The notes below the pieces were generated by a model. The model ran no database searches. It saw only the letters and a program-made list of their open reading frames with translations, and was not told the origin of the DNA. Both the position numbers and the translations under genes were made by a program. From a virus: a stretch of DNA of 23,912 nt. This document shows positions 7,969 through 17,838 of the stretch, in pieces (within the stretch, counting starts at the first letter, position 1; every line of letters begins with the position of its first letter). The stretch is from positions 1-23,912 of IMG/VR virus record IMGVR_UViG_3300021370_000010, one strand, 5' to 3'.

Positions 7969-9786
7969 TCAACTAAAGCAGTAGCGGCTTTCGAGCACTC
8001 CGTTGATGTCTAAGTCGCCTTTGACAGGCATAGGTGTCTCAAGCTTGGCATCAGCATTGGCTAGCTGCTCTCGCACCTCGGTCTCAAGTTTCTCAAAGAA
8101 GCAAGAGCCACCATAAATATCGACGAAGACCTGCCGTACTAAGTGATACATTGTGTCAGTGTCGGCAGCTTGGGTCGCGAATGAGTCGTGGATCATAAAG
8201 AAGTCTGTGATGCCTTTGTCCAACATCGCGCAGATCGTCAGCGCCATGTGTGCTGCGTCAGCGGCATGTATGAGATTTGGACTTACAGCATTGGATGCCT
8301 TGCGACTGTCAATCTCGCCGTGCTTATCTTCGACCATTGTTATCTGGGACCGCTTGTAGATCTTTGCTTCCCTGTCCCAAAGAAACACGCGCACCCTCAT
8401 ACGCTTGGTCTTTTGATAACGCTGAAACACCGGAAAGCCAGAGGCTGATGTCGAGCGCATAACCTTGTTCTCTTTGCTCAATGCCTCTGAAAGTCCGCGC
8501 AGATAATCCATTGCTCCTGAGACAGACTTGAGTGTCTCCCTGATCGTCTCGTACTGGATGTTCGCAAGGTACCGAGCAGCGTCTCGCTGGACATGGTCAT
8601 CGCCAAAGGGGTGCTTCTTGATCTCCCTGTACGCAGCTTTGCGCTCAAGTGGGACCATGAAATCTTCCATTAGCTGGTCGTACATTCCGTTTTGATTGCT
8701 GCTATAGCCGAAGGTCATTGTGGACCTTTTGCAGACCGTGCGCGTGATGCCAAAGTCCAGCCACAACCTTGCGAGGTCGCCAAGCGTCGGCGTGTAGCCA
8801 CGCTCGATCACGTTGCCATCCCTGTCGGTCTTGATAGCGTAGGGCAGCGTCTTGTCACTCGTCAGGTCTTGCTTGACGCGCTCTTCGACCGCCTTGGCTA
8901 CGACCGCATAAACATCCTGACAGGCGTCGTCAGGAACTAAGTTGACGAGGTATCCATCGACAGCGTTAAGGGTGGCGGCAGCATAGTGCTGAGTGCCTGA
9001 GTTTGTACCGTCCAAGCTCGGAGGCAAGTGACACACGTAGCCTGCGCCGTGATCGCAGTACTCAGCGTAAACCACGCAAGCAGCCAAGAACTGGAACGGC
9101 TTATCGGCGCGAGACCAGTCACCAAAGCTGGCTTTGTAATCCTCGGCGCAAGCAATGAGTTGATCGTGGTTTTCATCGACCCAAGCTACGCGGTCCTCGA
9201 AAGACTTCTTGCTGATTTTGTCAAAGTCACCGCAGTTGGCGAGGTGGACCTTGATCCACTTCGGATCTGTGACGGCCTTGCCCCGAGCAAACTGAAACAT
9301 CGCTTTGATGTGGTCAGCGCGGTGGTAATTGAACGTCGAGAGCATGTACATGCGGCCGCGGAAGTCCATGTTCCACGGGGTGTAGAACTGGTCGTAAGAT
9401 TGCATATCTCGCGCAGTCTTAAGGTCGCTGTTCATACAGTGGCGGTTTGCCACGACCTCCCGACGCTTTAAGTGCCACTTGCGTAAACCAGCGCGATGCT
9501 GAGACTTGACCTTGTCGCCCAGGCCTTCGTAGTCGTCGGGTAACACAGGTCGCGCAGGTGCTTCGGCTGCTGGGAAATTAGAGAACATCTTGGCCTCGTC
9601 CCAGCACCATTGTACCGCATCGACCACAGTGTCGTTTATTTTAAGCGGTGTTGCTTGTAGGGCATTGACAGCCCTTACGTAAGCTGGTGCCTTTGCTTCG
9701 ATGCTTCGATGCGGCCATGTCGGCCTCGACGGCGCGTCTCTGAGCGCCGGTAGCACCGCGTACCAAGTTGATGTCACCGCCTGCAC
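7969..9786 (-). CDS. Single-subunit phage RNA polymerase, catalytic part (frame-shifted from N-terminal part)
   Basis: The palm and fingers of a T7-type RNA polymerase, which transcribes phage genes independently of the host enzyme. Visible motifs: YTPWNMDFRGRMYMLSTFN (matches T7 YNMDWRGRVY), LDGTNSGTQHY with the first catalytic Asp, RTVCKRSTMTFGYSS (fingers Lys and Tyr), and MIHDSFAT with the second catalytic Asp. All catalytic residues are present. The frame upstream is closed by TAA at 9787-9789; the GTG at 9786 is only an open-frame start, and real homology begins near AKAPAYVRAVNALQ (about 9640-9690). The N-terminal domain lies in another frame (9641-10783). If the two were joined the protein would be about 937 residues, near the T7 size (883). 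Confidence 0.93.
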   Translation of the reverse strand: MQAVTSTWYAVLPALRDAPSRPTWPHRSIEAKAPAYVRAVNALQATPLKINDTVVDAVQWCWDEAKMFSNFPAAEAPARPVLPDDYEGLGDKVKSQHRAGLRKWHLKRREVVANRHCMNSDLKTARDMQSYDQFYTPWNMDFRGRMYMLSTFNYHRADHIKAMFQFARGKAVTDPKWIKVHLANCGDFDKISKKSFEDRVAWVDENHDQLIACAEDYKASFGDWSRADKPFQFLAACVVYAEYCDHGAGYVCHLPPSLDGTNSGTQHYAAATLNAVDGYLVNLVPDDACQDVYAVVAKAVEERVKQDLTSDKTLPYAIKTDRDGNVIERGYTPTLGDLARLWLDFGITRTVCKRSTMTFGYSSNQNGMYDQLMEDFMVPLERKAAYREIKKHPFGDDHVQRDAARYLANIQYETIRETLKSVSGAMDYLRGLSEALSKENKVMRSTSASGFPVFQRYQKTKRMRVRVFLWDREAKIYKRSQITMVEDKHGEIDSRKASNAVSPNLIHAADAAHMALTICAMLDKGITDFFMIHDSFATQAADTDTMYHLVRQVFVDIYGGSCFFEKLETEVREQLANADAKLETPMPVKGDLDINGVLESRYCFS

Positions 9787-10783
9787 TTAGGTCCGTGAGG
9801 TAGCCGCCATCGGTAAACGTCGTCCAAGGGATCGGTGGTACGACCATAGGCTGGTATACTGGGGCCATCCACCGAGCATCCATGTCGTTGTCTTCCAAGA
9901 GTTGCCGAGCCTCGGGTGTCAGATCGATGAACCGCTTCGACTTCGTTGCCGACACATATTCGGTCGTGACTTGGAAGATATCAGTGCTGCTGAGCACGCT
10001 GTTGATCACAAAGGTGCCAATGACAGCGCGGTCTTTCTTTCGCAGCTTAGAGTGCGAGGCCAGCATAGCCGAAGGTCTGTAGCCCTCCTTGGTAGCAATG
10101 TGTCTGATGGCCTTCTGACGGTACCTCAGTGCGCTGTGAGCTTTAGTGACCTGCGCCTCAACCCGCTTCGCCATGACCTTGTCAAAGGCAAGGAACTCAG
10201 CCCACCACGCTTGGTGCTCGATAGCTTTGGAAATGCGAAAGCCAATGCTGTCTATGCCTGACGTGAGTGATCCTTGAGAGCCTACTGCGTCCATCATGGT
10301 GCTTAGACCTATAAACGCCAAGGTCTCAGGTGCGTCTATGTCTTTAGCTATCTTCACCCAAAGCGGAGGCGCACCGGCTCCTGCAATAGCCTGGCGCAAG
10401 CTGTCTTGGATTGCCTGCGCTACGTGGCCGACAACGCCTTCGATCAATCTGTGGGGTTCGTTTGCTTTAGAGTACGCTGCGACACCTGTCAGGTTGCCGT
10501 CTTGATCGTACTTCGCTCCTGCCTGTGATGCCTGCCTGCTGATGTATCTGTCGTGACCTTCGTCGGCCATCTGTTGTTCCCGTGCAACTTGGATATCGAA
10601 GAGAGGGGCTGGTGGGGCTTTGTTTGGGTTAAGCCATGACGAGACTGGTGCCACGCCGACGCTGCCTTGGCCGACGTTTCCTTCGAGAGCCGGTGCTACA
10701 ATGTTAGCATCTTCCCACGCTTTGACGTCCTTTGACCATCCTTGATGCGAGGTGTCGCCGGTCCTTTGATAATCGTTAACCAT
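9641..10783 (-). CDS. Single-subunit phage RNA polymerase, N-terminal part (ends in frame break)
   Basis: The N-terminal domain of the RNA polymerase. The start at ATG 10783 has GGGAGA 7 nt upstream and follows the integrase stop by 17 nt. The sequence runs through QQMADEGHDRYISRQ, an RLIEGVVGHVAQAIQD segment, WWAEFLAFDKVMAKRV and PIPWTTFTDGGYLTDL, the last corresponding to PWTGITGGGYW in T7 RNAP. Sense continues to about LVRGATGAQRRAVEADMAA, after which the frame gives SKHRSKGTSLRKGCQC and a stop at 9641 while the homologous sequence continues in the +1 frame. The shift must lie between 9641 and 9789 and most likely at the tandem repeat 9695-9712. Real frameshift, slippage variant or sequence error cannot be told apart here. 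Confidence 0.9.
   Translation of the reverse strand: MVNDYQRTGDTSHQGWSKDVKAWEDANIVAPALEGNVGQGSVGVAPVSSWLNPNKAPPAPLFDIQVAREQQMADEGHDRYISRQASQAGAKYDQDGNLTGVAAYSKANEPHRLIEGVVGHVAQAIQDSLRQAIAGAGAPPLWVKIAKDIDAPETLAFIGLSTMMDAVGSQGSLTSGIDSIGFRISKAIEHQAWWAEFLAFDKVMAKRVEAQVTKAHSALRYRQKAIRHIATKEGYRPSAMLASHSKLRKKDRAVIGTFVINSVLSSTDIFQVTTEYVSATKSKRFIDLTPEARQLLEDNDMDARWMAPVYQPMVVPPIPWTTFTDGGYLTDLSAGGDINLVRGATGAQRRAVEADMAASKHRSKGTSLRKGCQCPTSNTA
9695..9712 (-). repeat. 8-bp tandem repeat at the RNA polymerase frame break
   Basis: ATCGAAGC is repeated twice, with a partial extra GC, on the minus strand. Adding one more 8-bp copy would put the N-terminal and catalytic parts of RNAP in one frame (reading MAASKHRSIEAKAPAYV); removing one copy would instead run into a stop. 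This makes loss of one of three copies by slippage, or collapse in assembly, a specific explanation for the broken frame. Confidence 0.75.
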
Positions 10784-10799
10784 GTTACTATCTCCCGTT

Positions 10800-11744
10800 T
10801 TATGTGTTTCTGCTATTGTTGCTAAACCTTCTTCCCATTTGAGCGCCGACATCCGCCGCCGCGTCTCCCTTGATATGCACGTAACCGTCGGTGGTCTTGA
10901 GCGACTTATGCCCTAGGAGACGTGCGATAAGTATCGTGTTGATCTGCAGATCATTTGCCATCGTACTAGCCGCTGTGTGCCGCAGACTGTGAAAGACAAA
11001 CGATGTATCATTTGGTGCGATGGCCTGACGTGCGGCCCTCATAGCGTCGTAAAACGGATGTTCGCGGAAGTGCAAAGCAGGCCGATTGTCGAGCTTTGCT
11101 AAAGCCTCAAGCACCGCGCCGTTGGCAGGCACACGCCGGTCATCGCCGTTCTTGGTTTGCTCTAGCACCAGCCACGCACCGTTTTCATCGTGTTCGATGT
11201 TGTCGGGATCGAGGGACCGTATCTCGCCGAGACGCATGCCTGTGTTGATGCCTATGATGACAAACTCTCGCACAAAGCGGTAGTCTTCTGGCAGGTTGTT
11301 CGTCCCTCTGCACAACTCTCTCGGCCAATCTAAGAACTTAAGCAAAGCATCCAACTCGCGGTCACTCAGGAACCGGCGCTTGTGCTGCTCATGCTTACCA
11401 ATCTTACGGAACTTAACGCGGGGTGCCTGCTGTATGAGACCCATTTCTTCCGCGTGTTTAAAGACAGCAGACAGACAGGCGACGTACCGATTCGTTGTTG
11501 CTGGTGAACATCCATTGGGCTTTCGCGGCGTCTGCTCAGTTTCAATATGAGCCATGAACTCATAGATATGCTGAGATCTGAAAGAGTCAAGTAATTGACT
11601 TCCGTAGTCAGAGAAGGCGCAGAACCTCCGCATCTTCGCGAGGGACTTCTTTTCGTGAGGCCCGTTGCCCCAAATGATACGTGAGTGCGTGGCAACGAAG
11701 TCTGCTATCGTAACAGTTGATTTACGTGCGTTGACATTGGTCAT
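10800..11744 (-). CDS. int: Tyrosine-type site-specific integrase
   Basis: A 314-residue phage integrase. The N-terminal SAM-like core-binding domain (about 10-110) contains TNRYVACLSAVFKHAEEMGLI, and the catalytic domain follows. The catalytic set is visible: R171 (TGMRLGEIRSL), K198 (EQTKNGDDRR), H252 and R255 (HSLRHTAAS), H279 (LLGHKSLKTT) and the nucleophile Y288 (DGYVHI). The start at 11744 has GGGAG 8 nt upstream and a GGTTGGGAGACC leader; the open frame extends another 79 codons upstream but into the repeat and attP-like region, so the longer form is not favoured. It lies directly before RNAP, the same order as in some T7-like cyanophages and pelagiphages, and indicates that the phage can be temperate. 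Confidence 0.97.
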   Translation of the reverse strand: MTNVNARKSTVTIADFVATHSRIIWGNGPHEKKSLAKMRRFCAFSDYGSQLLDSFRSQHIYEFMAHIETEQTPRKPNGCSPATTNRYVACLSAVFKHAEEMGLIQQAPRVKFRKIGKHEQHKRRFLSDRELDALLKFLDWPRELCRGTNNLPEDYRFVREFVIIGINTGMRLGEIRSLDPDNIEHDENGAWLVLEQTKNGDDRRVPANGAVLEALAKLDNRPALHFREHPFYDAMRAARQAIAPNDTSFVFHSLRHTAASTMANDLQINTILIARLLGHKSLKTTDGYVHIKGDAAADVGAQMGRRFSNNSRNT

Positions 11745-11749
11745 ATCGT

Positions 11750-11761
11750 GGTCTCCCAACC
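11750..11761 (-). promoter_or_regulatory. GGTTGGGAGACC leader motif before integrase
   Basis: Identical over 12 bases to the motif before primase-helicase at 6324-6335. Here it is preceded by AACACTG; in the polymerase leader GACACTTA precedes GTTGGGAGA at equal spacing. The CACT-5 nt-GGGAGA arrangement loosely recalls T7-family promoters, but GGGAG also serves as the ribosome binding site. Confidence 0.5.
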
Positions 11762-11829
11762 CAGTGTTAATCTGAGAGGCCCAATATATACTAATGTTTT
11801 CAACAACTTCCGCTGCGTGCGTCTCCGCG

Positions 11830-11862
11830 AGGGAGTTACAGTCCCCTGCCACACCTTGCGGC
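11830..11862 (-). other. tRNA-like D-arm plus anticodon arm (Tyr-like GUA), possible attP core
   Basis: On the minus strand GCC and GGC close a 9-nt loop containing GG (D-arm-like). Then comes a single A, then a 5-bp stem GGGGA/TCCCT (one G-U) with the 7-nt loop CTGTAAC, which would present anticodon GUA. U8, A14, a T-arm and acceptor stem are not evident, so this is not a functional tRNA. Integrases often recombine inside tRNA genes, and this could be the shared core. Chance resemblance remains possible. Confidence 0.35.
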
Positions 11863-11961
11863 CTGTCGCCCATCAATAGTATACATGGGTCCAGCCCTGT
11901 ATTTGCGTAGATAATCGTGCGTCTCAGAGATTGCAAGTGTTTTCTTTGATCCAGTGCTAAC

Positions 11962-11985
11962 AGCGGTACCCACAATTCCAAGTTG
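11962..11985 (-). repeat. 24-bp repeat, copy 2 (putative phage promoter) before integrase
   Basis: The second copy of the GAATTGTGGGTACCGCT repeat, 22 of 24 identical to 7937-7960. It lies about 220 nt upstream of the integrase start and adjoins the 11-12-bp direct repeats. The two copies bracket the integrase-RNAP block. Confidence 0.6.
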
Positions 11986-14889: not shown

Positions 14890-15210
14890 CTAATTCCTTT
14901 TATTCGTCGCCATAAAGTAGTCCAGAGACTGGTCACGCAGACGCTTGGTGATCTCTTTGACGCTGTGCTGGTAGAGGTCGAAGCCTTCGCGGAGCCATTG
15001 TTCGTGAACGGCAACGGGTATCGACGCAACGCGCTGAAACTCTTTTTCACGGGTTTCACTACTCGCGTTTCGGCTGTCTTTAAGGTCATCCATGAAGGCG
15101 GTGGTGATGTTCTGGGTATTCTTAAAGGTGACACGGTCTCCCTCCTGCAAATACTCTGTTTCAACGCCCAGCAATGTGCGGGCGGGCTTGTTCTTTGTGT
15201 CTTTTGTCAT
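14890..15210 (-). CDS. Hypothetical virion-region protein
   Basis: A 106-residue charged protein (LLGVETEYLQEGDRVTF, IPVAVHEQWLREGFDL, KEITKRLRDQSLDYFMATNKRN). It lies between the capsid hairpin and the connector gene, its stop 3 nt before the connector start. The start at ATG 15210 is chosen because the open frame further upstream runs into the large hairpin. No Shine-Dalgarno is visible, only C-rich sequence, so initiation is unusual or the start is wrong. No family is recognised; the position suggests a minor head or connector component. Confidence 0.65.
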   Translation of the reverse strand: MTKDTKNKPARTLLGVETEYLQEGDRVTFKNTQNITTAFMDDLKDSRNASSETREKEFQRVASIPVAVHEQWLREGFDLYQHSVKEITKRLRDQSLDYFMATNKRN

Positions 15211-15245
15211 GTGTGGGGGTGCTCGATATTGTTGTGGTGTGGTGG

Positions 15246-15317
15246 AAAAGAGGACCGGCGGGGGAGACGAAGTAAGGAGAGCAGCCAACCTTCGTCTGCT
15301 TGGTCCCGCCGGACCTC
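15246..15317 (-). terminator. Large stem-loop with U-tract after the capsid gene
   Basis: On the minus strand GAGG-U-CCGGCGGG pairs with CCCGCCGG-U-CCUC (12 pairs, one U-U mismatch). An inner helix AGACGAAG/CUUCGUCU closes a loop of about 17 nt, and UUUU follows the outer stem. It begins 22 nt after the capsid stop. T7 has its late terminator right after its capsid gene, and the same arrangement would lower transcription of downstream genes relative to capsid. Confidence 0.8.
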
Positions 15318-15339: not shown

Positions 15340-16481
15340 CTAGGTAAGGCCAGTGATCATGTGGCTGTCAGCAAAACTCATGTGTTTTACTGAGCCTTCG
15401 TAGACAATCTGGTGCTTGTCCGAGTCGCCTGTCTTCGCCAACAAGGTCCGCGTGTAGGGGCGCAAGACAACCTGTTTGAACATCGACGGGTCAATCAGCC
15501 ATGCAACCGTAGAGAGACTATGACGGTTCAACACACACTTATAAGTGCCGAAAGGGCCTACATAGATATCGATCACATTCACCAGCGTCTTGGTGCTAGC
15601 AAACTCACGATTACGACCTGACGCAGCCGCGAAATTCGCCACGATCAAAGCGTCCGCAGGCTTGATCATCAGCACGTCTGGGGTCGATCCTGCTTCATAA
15701 GCAGCTTGGCCCGCAGTGAGGATGTGCGTCTCGGTCAGAGCAGCAGATCCTGCCGCTGTCGCAGCCGTGATCATTTGATCGACTGAGGCCATCTTACGCG
15801 CAGCCGAAGCTGTGCCCGTGACGGCGGCTTGAGATACACCAACGTATGCCCGCTCCTGATCACGCTTCATCTCTTTGAGCACACGTCCAAGTTGATAAGC
15901 GGTTTCCTTTGCTCTACCGTAAGTCTTGATGACATCGGCAGTGGCTGAGACTTGGAAAGCCTTGGTCAGGATCTGCGAGGTGTTAGATCGCATGGTTGTA
16001 GGTGTCAGAGTACCAATAGTGGCATCTGCCCCTTCAATAGCGGCATTGACGCCTGCTGCTGCAAGGCTGTCTTCCTGCCATTCAAAAGTACGAGCATGTG
16101 TTTTCTCGGACTTCATCAAAGAAGTGAAGGGGGTATCGGTTGGAGTTATGTCGGTTATGCATTGTGTTCGTCTAAGGTCGTAAGGCTTAGACCGCCCGAG
16201 GGCTGCTATAGGTTCATAATCCCCATAGATCAGATCATATCATCACCCTGTTTTCACAGGGGCTGTGCGCTTCGGACCACTTGGCCCTACTCCCCGAAGG
16301 GATGATCGTTGCACCTTCCCTCACATTTGCAAGGGCTTGGCTCAGGATTGTCCAGCGTGGGATGTTCCCTGAGTTCACACAGTTTGTTTTGACGCATTAC
16401 TGCGAAAGGGCACCATTGTTACCTAATGCCCGAAACGTCTTCAGCTTGACCCACTTGATTGTAGGTTGTGTAAGTAGCCAT
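15340..16481 (-). CDS. Major capsid protein, SU10/DUF5309 type, split by a group I intron
   Basis: Exon 1 is 16426-16481 and exon 2 is 15340-16159; joined they give 876 nt, 291 residues. ATG 16481 has a near-perfect AAGGAGGT 6 nt upstream. Exon 1 encodes MATYTTYNQVGQAEDVSG plus two bases of the next codon; exon 2 continues ITDITPTDTPFTSLM, then THARTFEWQEDSLA, RSNTSQILTKAFQVS and QLGRVLKEMKRDQE. The FEWQxDSL and ELKRD-like elements and the TDTPF N-arm are typical of the SU10-type (DUF5309) capsid family. Without splicing, translation stops after 19 codons (in-frame TAA at the start of the intron). An internal start in exon 2 would lose the first 34 residues, including the conserved N-arm. The gene follows the scaffold by 28 nt and is followed by a strong hairpin. 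Confidence 0.93.
16160..16425 (-). ncRNA. Self-splicing group I intron (IA-type, T4 td-like) in the capsid gene
   Basis: 266 nt, no ORF. Numbering from the intron 5' end: the internal guide GUGCCC (13-18) pairs with exon-1 end GGGCAU, giving P1 with the required U-G at the splice site. AUG (10-12) pairs with exon-2 CAU (P10), and the intron ends in G266. P3 is CUGUGUG (44-50) with CGCACAG (157-163), and P4 is CUCAGG (53-58) with CCUGAG (80-85). P7 is GAUCAU (119-124) with AUGAUC (188-193). P7.1 is a UUCG-loop stem (124-135), P7.2 is GGGCC/GGUCC (139-152), and P8 is CCCUGU-GAAA-ACAGGG (165-180). P9.2 is GUCUAAG/CUUAGAC (234-256). The core, with P7.1 and P7.2, closely resembles the T4 td intron as I recall it, with compensatory change in P7. 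Confidence 0.95.
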
Positions 16482-16508: not shown

Positions 16509-17561
16509 TTAGGCTTCCCAGCGTGCAAGTAAGGCCTCTGCTATATCATCAGCATCACCGCTCTTTGATCTCAGCACGTCGTGAGCTTTCTTAACTCGAC
16601 GGGACTTACTATCCTCGCGGACTGGTGATTTGGTTGACCTTAAGATCTTCTTGCCTTTGTTGCCGTCCTTGGCCCTGATCACCTTAGCTTTCTGCTTTTT
16701 AGTCTCGGCAGTCGCTTTGGTTTGGTCGTATAGACGGGCTTTGTTAAGCAACATGATTACCTGTGGATCGACGTATTGATCGACTTGCTCTTGGGGTAAT
16801 CCTTGGCTGACCGCATAGGCTCGGATGTCATTGTAAACATCGTTGCCCCAGTCAGGCATTTGGCTCTGAAGAACCTTTACGCATTCACTCGCGGCCTGCT
16901 GATGCAGCACTTTCTGCTGGTCTTGGGCATCGCGGTAAAAGGCGTCGGCCTCTTCTTTGAGGAACTTTAGGTCGGCTTCTGCGTCTTTGCTTTCGGACCT
17001 GAGCTTCGCAAAATCGTCAGCATCCATTTGGCGGCTGGCGACTAGCATATCTACCTCGTTATAAGGCTTGGCTCGGGCTTCTGCTCTTTCGAGAAGCGTT
17101 TGATAACTGATGCTTGCCTTTTGATAGGCAGCGTCGGCCTCTTTGCGCTGGGCAGCGAGGTCTTGAGACTTCCGTGTCAGGCTGGCTTCTTGGCCGTGCA
17201 GACGTTTCAAGGCGGCAATGGATACCCGCTGCGTTTCCCCGTCAACAATGATTTCGACTTGAGTATCGTCATCTATTGACAACTCTACTTCGTCTGCTTC
17301 ATCGGTCTCGGGTTCTTCGCTTTCGTCGGGGTCCTCGTCGTCCTCTTCGTCGGTCTGCTCGGTCTCGTCATCCTGATCTTCGTCAGACGTATCCTCTAGT
17401 GTCTCATCTTCGTCGTCTTCGTTGCGAGGGTCGTCCGTTGCCTCTTCATCCTCTTCGGATAGGGTTTCCCCGTCCTCCCAGCGACTAAGAATGGCGTCCG
17501 CAGCGTCATCGGCATCGAGGCTGCGTGGTTGAGAATCTTCGTTTAATTGCACGTTACTCAT
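16509..17561 (-). CDS. Scaffolding protein
   Basis: A 350-residue, very acidic protein upstream of the capsid gene. The region of about 35-100 is almost all Glu, Asp and Thr. A small structured part (VEIIVDGETQRVSIAALKRLHGQE, about 105-125) then leads into a long coiled coil (about 125-245) and a basic C-terminal region (KKQKAKVIRAKDGNKGKK) that probably contacts the acidic capsid interior. The N-terminus carries DADDAADAILSRWED and the very end DADDIAEALLARWEA, two versions of the same peptide. ATG 17561 lies just after the stop of the preceding gene, with AGAGGA about 12 nt upstream. Scaffold identity rests on composition and position. Confidence 0.87.
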   Translation of the reverse strand: MSNVQLNEDSQPRSLDADDAADAILSRWEDGETLSEEDEEATDDPRNEDDEDETLEDTSDEDQDDETEQTDEEDDEDPDESEEPETDEADEVELSIDDDTQVEIIVDGETQRVSIAALKRLHGQEASLTRKSQDLAAQRKEADAAYQKASISYQTLLERAEARAKPYNEVDMLVASRQMDADDFAKLRSESKDAEADLKFLKEEADAFYRDAQDQQKVLHQQAASECVKVLQSQMPDWGNDVYNDIRAYAVSQGLPQEQVDQYVDPQVIMLLNKARLYDQTKATAETKKQKAKVIRAKDGNKGKKILRSTKSPVREDSKSRRVKKAHDVLRSKSGDADDIAEALLARWEA

Positions 17562-17565
17562 GGTG

Positions 17566-17838
17566 CTACTCGTCCTCTCGACTGTTGTCGTCATTATCAA
17601 TGGCGCGGTCGTTGATCTCATCGCGGATCGACACCCATTGCTTCAGTGTATTTGCCACGTCTACTAGTGCTCGATAGTGGCGGTAGTTGGTCTCTCGTCC
17701 TGCGTCATCTGACGGGTCGGAGTTGACGTAGGTAGTGAACGTCCCTTCGACCAACGTGTTGACGCAGGCATTGAATGCAGTGCTAGACAATAGCTGCTCT
17801 GCCTCGTCACCTTGCGTGACAAGTTCTTCTTCAGTCAT
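17566..17838 (-). CDS. Small acidic protein between portal and scaffold
   Basis: A 90-residue acidic helical protein (EELVTQGDEAEQLLSS, TTYVNSDPSDD, HYRALVDVANTLKQWVSIRDEIND). AAGGAGAGCAC precedes its ATG, the same extended ribosome binding site as at 22172. Small proteins in this slot, between portal and scaffold, are frequent in podoviruses with P22/SU10-type portals, but their role is not known to me. Confidence 0.75.
   Translation of the reverse strand: MTEEELVTQGDEAEQLLSSTAFNACVNTLVEGTFTTYVNSDPSDDAGRETNYRHYRALVDVANTLKQWVSIRDEINDRAIDNDDNSREDE

Follow-up and report, generated by a model that had tools for sequence, protein, structure and literature searches.

Small group IA introns without nuclease genes occupy many sites of one phage capsid gene and have probably spread by gene conversion

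How does a phage make its major capsid protein when the gene runs into a stop codon almost as soon as it has begun, and how did the interrupting sequence come to lie there? Both questions are raised by a 23,912-nucleotide stretch of DNA from an uncultured phage (IMG/VR record IMGVR_UViG_3300021370_000010, positions 1–23,912; hereafter the window), in which the capsid reading frame opens at 16481 on the minus strand. It begins behind a ribosome binding site, AAGGAGGT (16495–16488, minus strand, read from the sequence), just as the original prediction had claimed, and without splicing it would stop after 20 codons rather than the 19 first counted. Upstream lies a gene that is scaffold-like by position and has no Pfam match (16509–17621, minus strand), and downstream a small gene matching phrog_3982, of unknown function, with no nuclease match (14890–15288, minus strand).

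Excising positions 16425–16160 joins a first exon of 56 nt (16481–16426; 18 codons plus 2 nt) to a second of 820 nt including the stop codon (16159–15340), all on the minus strand, restoring the codon AT|C at the join and giving a protein of 291 residues. The joined protein matches the Pfam family SU10_MCP (PF17236) over residues 5–291 (249.7 bits, E 5.6e-74), so that the capsid that the original prediction expected from this join is indeed recovered, and of SU10 type. Eight IMG/VR contigs (L002–L009) carry capsid proteins 96–98% identical to it, with no interruption at this site and the same join in continuous sequence. Their genes begin at an ATG matching the start in the window, and a natural start at the internal position was not seen among these close relatives. 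The 266 nt intron (16425–16160) thus has the coordinates first proposed for it, and the intron-split capsid gene is confirmed as a real observation. Splicing in the cell would yield an SU10-type major capsid protein of 291 residues, and a routine gene call would lose the N-terminus as predicted, by 32–33 residues and not 34.

The insert was matched by the Rfam group I intron model RF00028 from 16435 to 16206 (minus strand) over the full model length, with 60.5 bits (E 2.7e-13) against a curated cut-off of 50 bits, and this was the sole Rfam family detected in the window. By inspection, the base before the intron is U and its last base is G. The 5′ exon strand of P1, GGGCAT (16431–16426), ends in the U.G pair at the splice site and covaries with the internal guide strand GTGCCC (16413–16408); across the family the two change together, from GGGCAT/GTGCCC in the window and L010 to GGACAT/GTGTCC in most relatives and AGACAT/GTGTCT in the L058 group. 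The adjoining ATG (16416–16414) forms P10 with CAT at 16159–16157. P10 tracks the 3′ exon across the family (a mean of 4.0 bp versus 2.0 when shuffled, with 0 of 2000 shuffles as high), but in the window it has just 3 bp (CAU/AUG) and is weak for fixing the 3′ splice site by itself; the claim that P1 and P10 each fix a splice site therefore holds for P1 and not fully for P10.

An alignment of 25 introns, 24 from this site and one shifted relative, gave standard pairs in 99.0% of 1600 pair cells, and both sides change in 35 of 64 pairs, those of P7 and of P1, the helix of exon and guide, among them; when the partners were slid by one to three columns just 28–42% paired. Double changes occur in P3 (1/7 pairs), P4 (4/7), P6 (2/4), P7 (2/5) and P8 (2/4), all of them 99–100% paired. 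P7, with strands GATCA (16307–16303; alignment columns 133–137) and TGATC (16237–16233; columns 203–207), reads GAUCA/UGAUC in the window and GACUA/UAGUC or GACCA/UGGUC in relatives. The IA-type extra hairpins between P7 and P3′, P7.1 (columns 138–149) and P7.2 (columns 153–166), covary in 3/3 and 3/5 pairs respectively, and the presence of these helices and the covariation in P7 that had been put forward for this intron are borne out. Its 266 nt leave no room for a nuclease gene. Judged by sequence and covariation, the insert is a group IA (td-like) intron without an endonuclease and is predicted to be self-splicing, which supports the group I interpretation with which the analysis began. In its core, in P7.1 and P7.2, in the U.G at the 5′ site and in the terminal G it is like T4 td and other group IA phage introns, a likeness of features rather than one drawn from comparison with the T4 sequence. 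T4 td carries I-TevI; unlike it, no intron of the core family described here has space for a nuclease. As a ribozyme the window intron is thus an ordinary member of its class, and the new part is the crowding of such introns in one gene.

Introns of this core family occupy at least 11 sites of the capsid gene, at 51, 56 (that of the window), 68, 152, 167, 179, 259, 319, 347, 656 and 664 in the coding coordinates of the window. They are about 240–280 nt long, have no ORF and leave no space for a nuclease. At least one intron was present in 64 of 227 collected capsid loci (43 distinct), and the other 163 were scored uninterrupted, L097 wrongly so as it carries an intron; these counts are not a prevalence, since the searches were biased, either to intact genes or to a single intron lineage, and some of the loci counted overlap on the same contig. 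The capsid gene of L082 holds four introns and those of L091 and L117 three each, every one reaching the RF00028 cut-off. In L082 (positions 3–1765) about 1 kb of intron lies within less than 0.9 kb of coding sequence. Splice sites in the relatives come from a finder that gave one best in-frame join per intron and demanded T before the intron and G at its end, so that the T/G rule in the relatives is not independent evidence. Some automatic joins made with a distant query were rejected as artefacts, namely a ‘site 337’ in L238 and L240 (by eye site 319, with an intron of 241 nt) and intron lengths of 277–415 nt in L239, L241, L243 and L258; a ‘site 644’ in L255 was also discarded, the true junction by eye being GGCTCCGT|CAGCC. 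The divergent capsid genes of L238, L240, L241 and L258, which are like that of phage C72C1, have introns of another lineage where site 68 would lie, and that position has therefore been invaded at least twice. In C72C1 itself (OQ984150.1), whose capsid is distant, a group I intron splits the capsid gene at the equivalent of site 319. In the record (L283, 8530–9731) the capsid appears as two ‘major head protein’ coding sequences, and three small ORFs are placed on the opposite strand over the intron, which is itself unannotated.

Where RF00028 matches were mapped, in 46 whole records, all lay inside the capsid gene, and the intron-free records among the 46 gave no matches; many or most of these records are fragments, and among them are 14 intron-free records of 32–43 kb and a single intron-bearing record of 40 kb. 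Fifty-three contigs contain the core pattern of the site-56 lineage, and those with the intron are capsid genes. About 15 contigs with the pattern outside capsid genes proved to have in common an unrelated AT-rich sequence with no intron and were set aside as chance matches. Unrelated phages also have introns of this broad class, at lower identity, in genes for polymerase, terminase and other proteins.

The original prediction had called a capsid intron without a homing endonuclease unusual. The lack of an endonuclease stands, but capsid introns are known from mycobacteriophage LittleE (819 bp, with a nuclease ORF) and lactococcal phage Tuc2009, and the tail-gene intron of phages BAKA and Optimus lacks a nuclease gene in BAKA, where it measures 265 bp (PMC3706429). 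The virion-gene introns of LittleE and of BAKA/Optimus are efficiently spliced (PMC3706429); they lie in virion genes like those described here, but at one site per gene and in phages of unrelated hosts. In the Bastillevirinae up to three group I introns occur per gene, some of them ORF-less; their mean length is 802 nt and they mostly interrupt genes for a polymerase, terminase or reductase (PMC11878797), and phage Twort is cited there for a gene with three introns. Compared with these, the present introns are about 240–280 nt, confined to the capsid gene and up to four per gene, with no nuclease found. Capsid introns and ORF-less introns are thus already known, whilst no description of a phage capsid gene with several ORF-less introns was found in a literature search that lay outside most subscription journals, and the crowding appears to be new.

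The introns have travelled separately from the genes that hold them. At site 56 the window and L012 share 94% identity in the intron but 71.7% in the exons, and at site 167 L011 and L026 share 94.5% and 71.4% respectively. Pairs of intron-bearing and intron-free genes that are 96–98% identical differ mainly beside the insertion: L058 and L035 at −51 to −3 and +1 to +19 and then nowhere before +68, L059 and L037 at −24 to −3 and +1 to +13, and L081 and L016 from −6 to +13. Pooled over 17 site comparisons, in which several test pairs share history, intron-bearing genes differ from their nearest intron-free counterparts at 94 of 670 positions within 20 nt of the insertion (14.0%) and at 381 of 9357 elsewhere (4.1%), the differences clustering within about 30 nt of insertions. 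The base of the nearest intron-bearing but otherwise distant gene is matched by 71 of 90 near differences (79%) and by 223 of 547 far ones (41%). Part of the flank excess is background, since intron-free pairs of like divergence also vary more near the sites (ratio 1.2–2.1; at site 56, 7.4% versus 4.0%), and the clearest cases, L058, L059, L062 and L072, are related events. In the window itself, compared with L003, its nearest relative in DNA among those compared (93.6% nt, capsid uninterrupted), differences fall at positions 12, 36, 45, 51, 53 and 54 and next only at 197, and its converted tract would be at most about 20 nt, a figure resting on few differences. Despite the background, the direction of the signal is as expected of DNA copying with short flanks, and the clustering together with the donor-like matches makes it likely that the introns spread between equivalent sites by gene conversion of DNA, with short stretches of flanking exon converted along with them.

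A different route has to be weighed for moves to new sites. The intron tree groups mostly by site, with exceptions: the site-68 introns of L080 and L097 nest in the site-56 clade (support 98/97), site 68 being 12 nt downstream of site 56 behind a second GGACAT and P10 being re-matched to the new exon (CAC/GTG); the site-152 intron of L082 clusters with site-259 introns, with AGCCT targets in L082 and L104; and introns of sites 167 and 664, which have the target CCGT in common, cluster together. Related introns thus tend to share a guide target even at different sites, which is what would be seen if excised intron RNA entered capsid mRNA at a guide match of 4–6 bases by reverse splicing and was then copied back into DNA, a proposal described previously (PMC6083498, PMC3984707) that requires just those few matching bases (PMC3984707). 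A common target, however, is required for splicing after an insertion of any kind, no reverse transcriptase was noted in the general annotation of the window ORFs or of the 40-kb record G014, and the clustered, donor-like exon changes beside insertions favour DNA copying for spread at the same site. A pure reverse-splicing origin of the flanks was dropped after the pairwise and pooled comparisons, and as an account of the introns in general we regard reverse splicing as unlikely.

Less probable again, and disfavoured, is that the introns were inherited vertically and lost many times, their likeness reflecting slow change in the ribozyme. Structured RNA is constrained, and introns are indeed more alike than their exons in nearly all same-site pairs (433 of 446), so that the pattern is general. 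Against this, the capsid proteins of the intron-bearing L058, L059, L062 and L081 are identical to those of intron-free contigs, site-56 intron presence requires at least 18 changes on the capsid protein tree, members of the window and L012 clades are 87–94% identical and yet have different intron sites or none, and the near differences match donor-like sequences. A patchy distribution and co-converted flanks are together the mark of a mobile intron, and both are seen here, the second with the background noted above. Scarcely credible is the reading of the insert as a degenerate, non-splicing remnant in a phage that is dead or whose capsid is truncated or internally started: splicing is here a prediction from the sequence and the frame offers internal starts at 16119 (TTG) and 16116 (ATG), but the ribozyme is full length with all core pairs kept, its guide changes follow the exon, and the reading frames are intact on either side with intact relatives beginning at the same ATG.

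Gene conversion of an endonuclease-free group IA intron, one of a set occupying at least 11 sites, remains in our view the highly probable explanation of the locus as a whole. The guide would pair with the six bases that end exon 1, cleavage by the P3/P7/P8 core would take place there and at the terminal G, and joining of the exons at codon AT|C would give the 291-residue capsid protein. The small introns at these sites of one gene would move between phages at the DNA level, a break at the empty site being made, most likely, by a nuclease supplied in trans and then repaired by gene conversion with short flanks. In cyanophage S-PM2 an ORF-less psbA intron is paired with F-CphI, the product of an adjacent nuclease gene, in collaborative homing (PMC6083498, PMC3984707), and the present ORF-less introns could likewise spread by a nuclease encoded elsewhere, although no such gene was found here. 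HNH_3 and GIY-YIG profiles matched in 0 of 46 records, mostly fragments, and HNH and LAGLIDADG_3 in 0 of 16, positive controls having worked in both cases; the Endonuclease_7 profile was uninformative as its control was silent. PHROGs searches of 20 window ORFs and 10 ORFs of a 40-kb relative returned a T7-type endonuclease and no homing nuclease. With no HNH, GIY-YIG or LAGLIDADG nuclease in these records the proposed cutter is hypothetical; it may belong to a different nuclease family or be supplied by other phages. We put forward more tentatively, as an idea that is rather doubtful, that the capsid gene serves as a shared landing platform for nuclease-free introns, which would spread at the same site by short gene conversion after nuclease breaks and reach new sites where the guide meets a second match in the gene, as in the 12-nt step from 56 to 68.

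Elsewhere in the window a tyrosine integrase (10800–11981, minus strand) lies beside a T7-like RNA polymerase (7969–10852, minus strand), a pairing that points to a temperate phage related to the T7-like ones, with a head of SU10 type. The polymerase is in two overlapping ORFs in different frames, broken at about 9687–9716, and is one ORF of 819 residues in a 40-kb relative; the split is either a sequencing error or a real frameshift. Weak second capsid-like matches were seen downstream in a search with composition filters off. As to the host, just four genome contigs came to light, and none of them points to one with certainty. L203 (8001–8891), on a contig of 17 kb from a Gammaproteobacteria MAG, encodes a capsid protein with the same sequence as that of L187; instead of a prophage, the contig may represent phage DNA that was binned with the MAG.

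These introns bear on the continued spread of group I introns that lack a nuclease gene, as they are apparently still moving between phages though none carries such a gene. Annotation is affected too, as in OQ984150.1, where the capsid gene is split and filled with small ORFs. Dozens of nearly identical capsid genes, some with introns and some without, can be compared; as there are at least 11 sites and donor-like sequences can be traced, it would be possible to measure the flanks that every move has left behind; and since a capsid gene must be expressed in bulk, four introns in one such gene would be a hard test of the cost of splicing.
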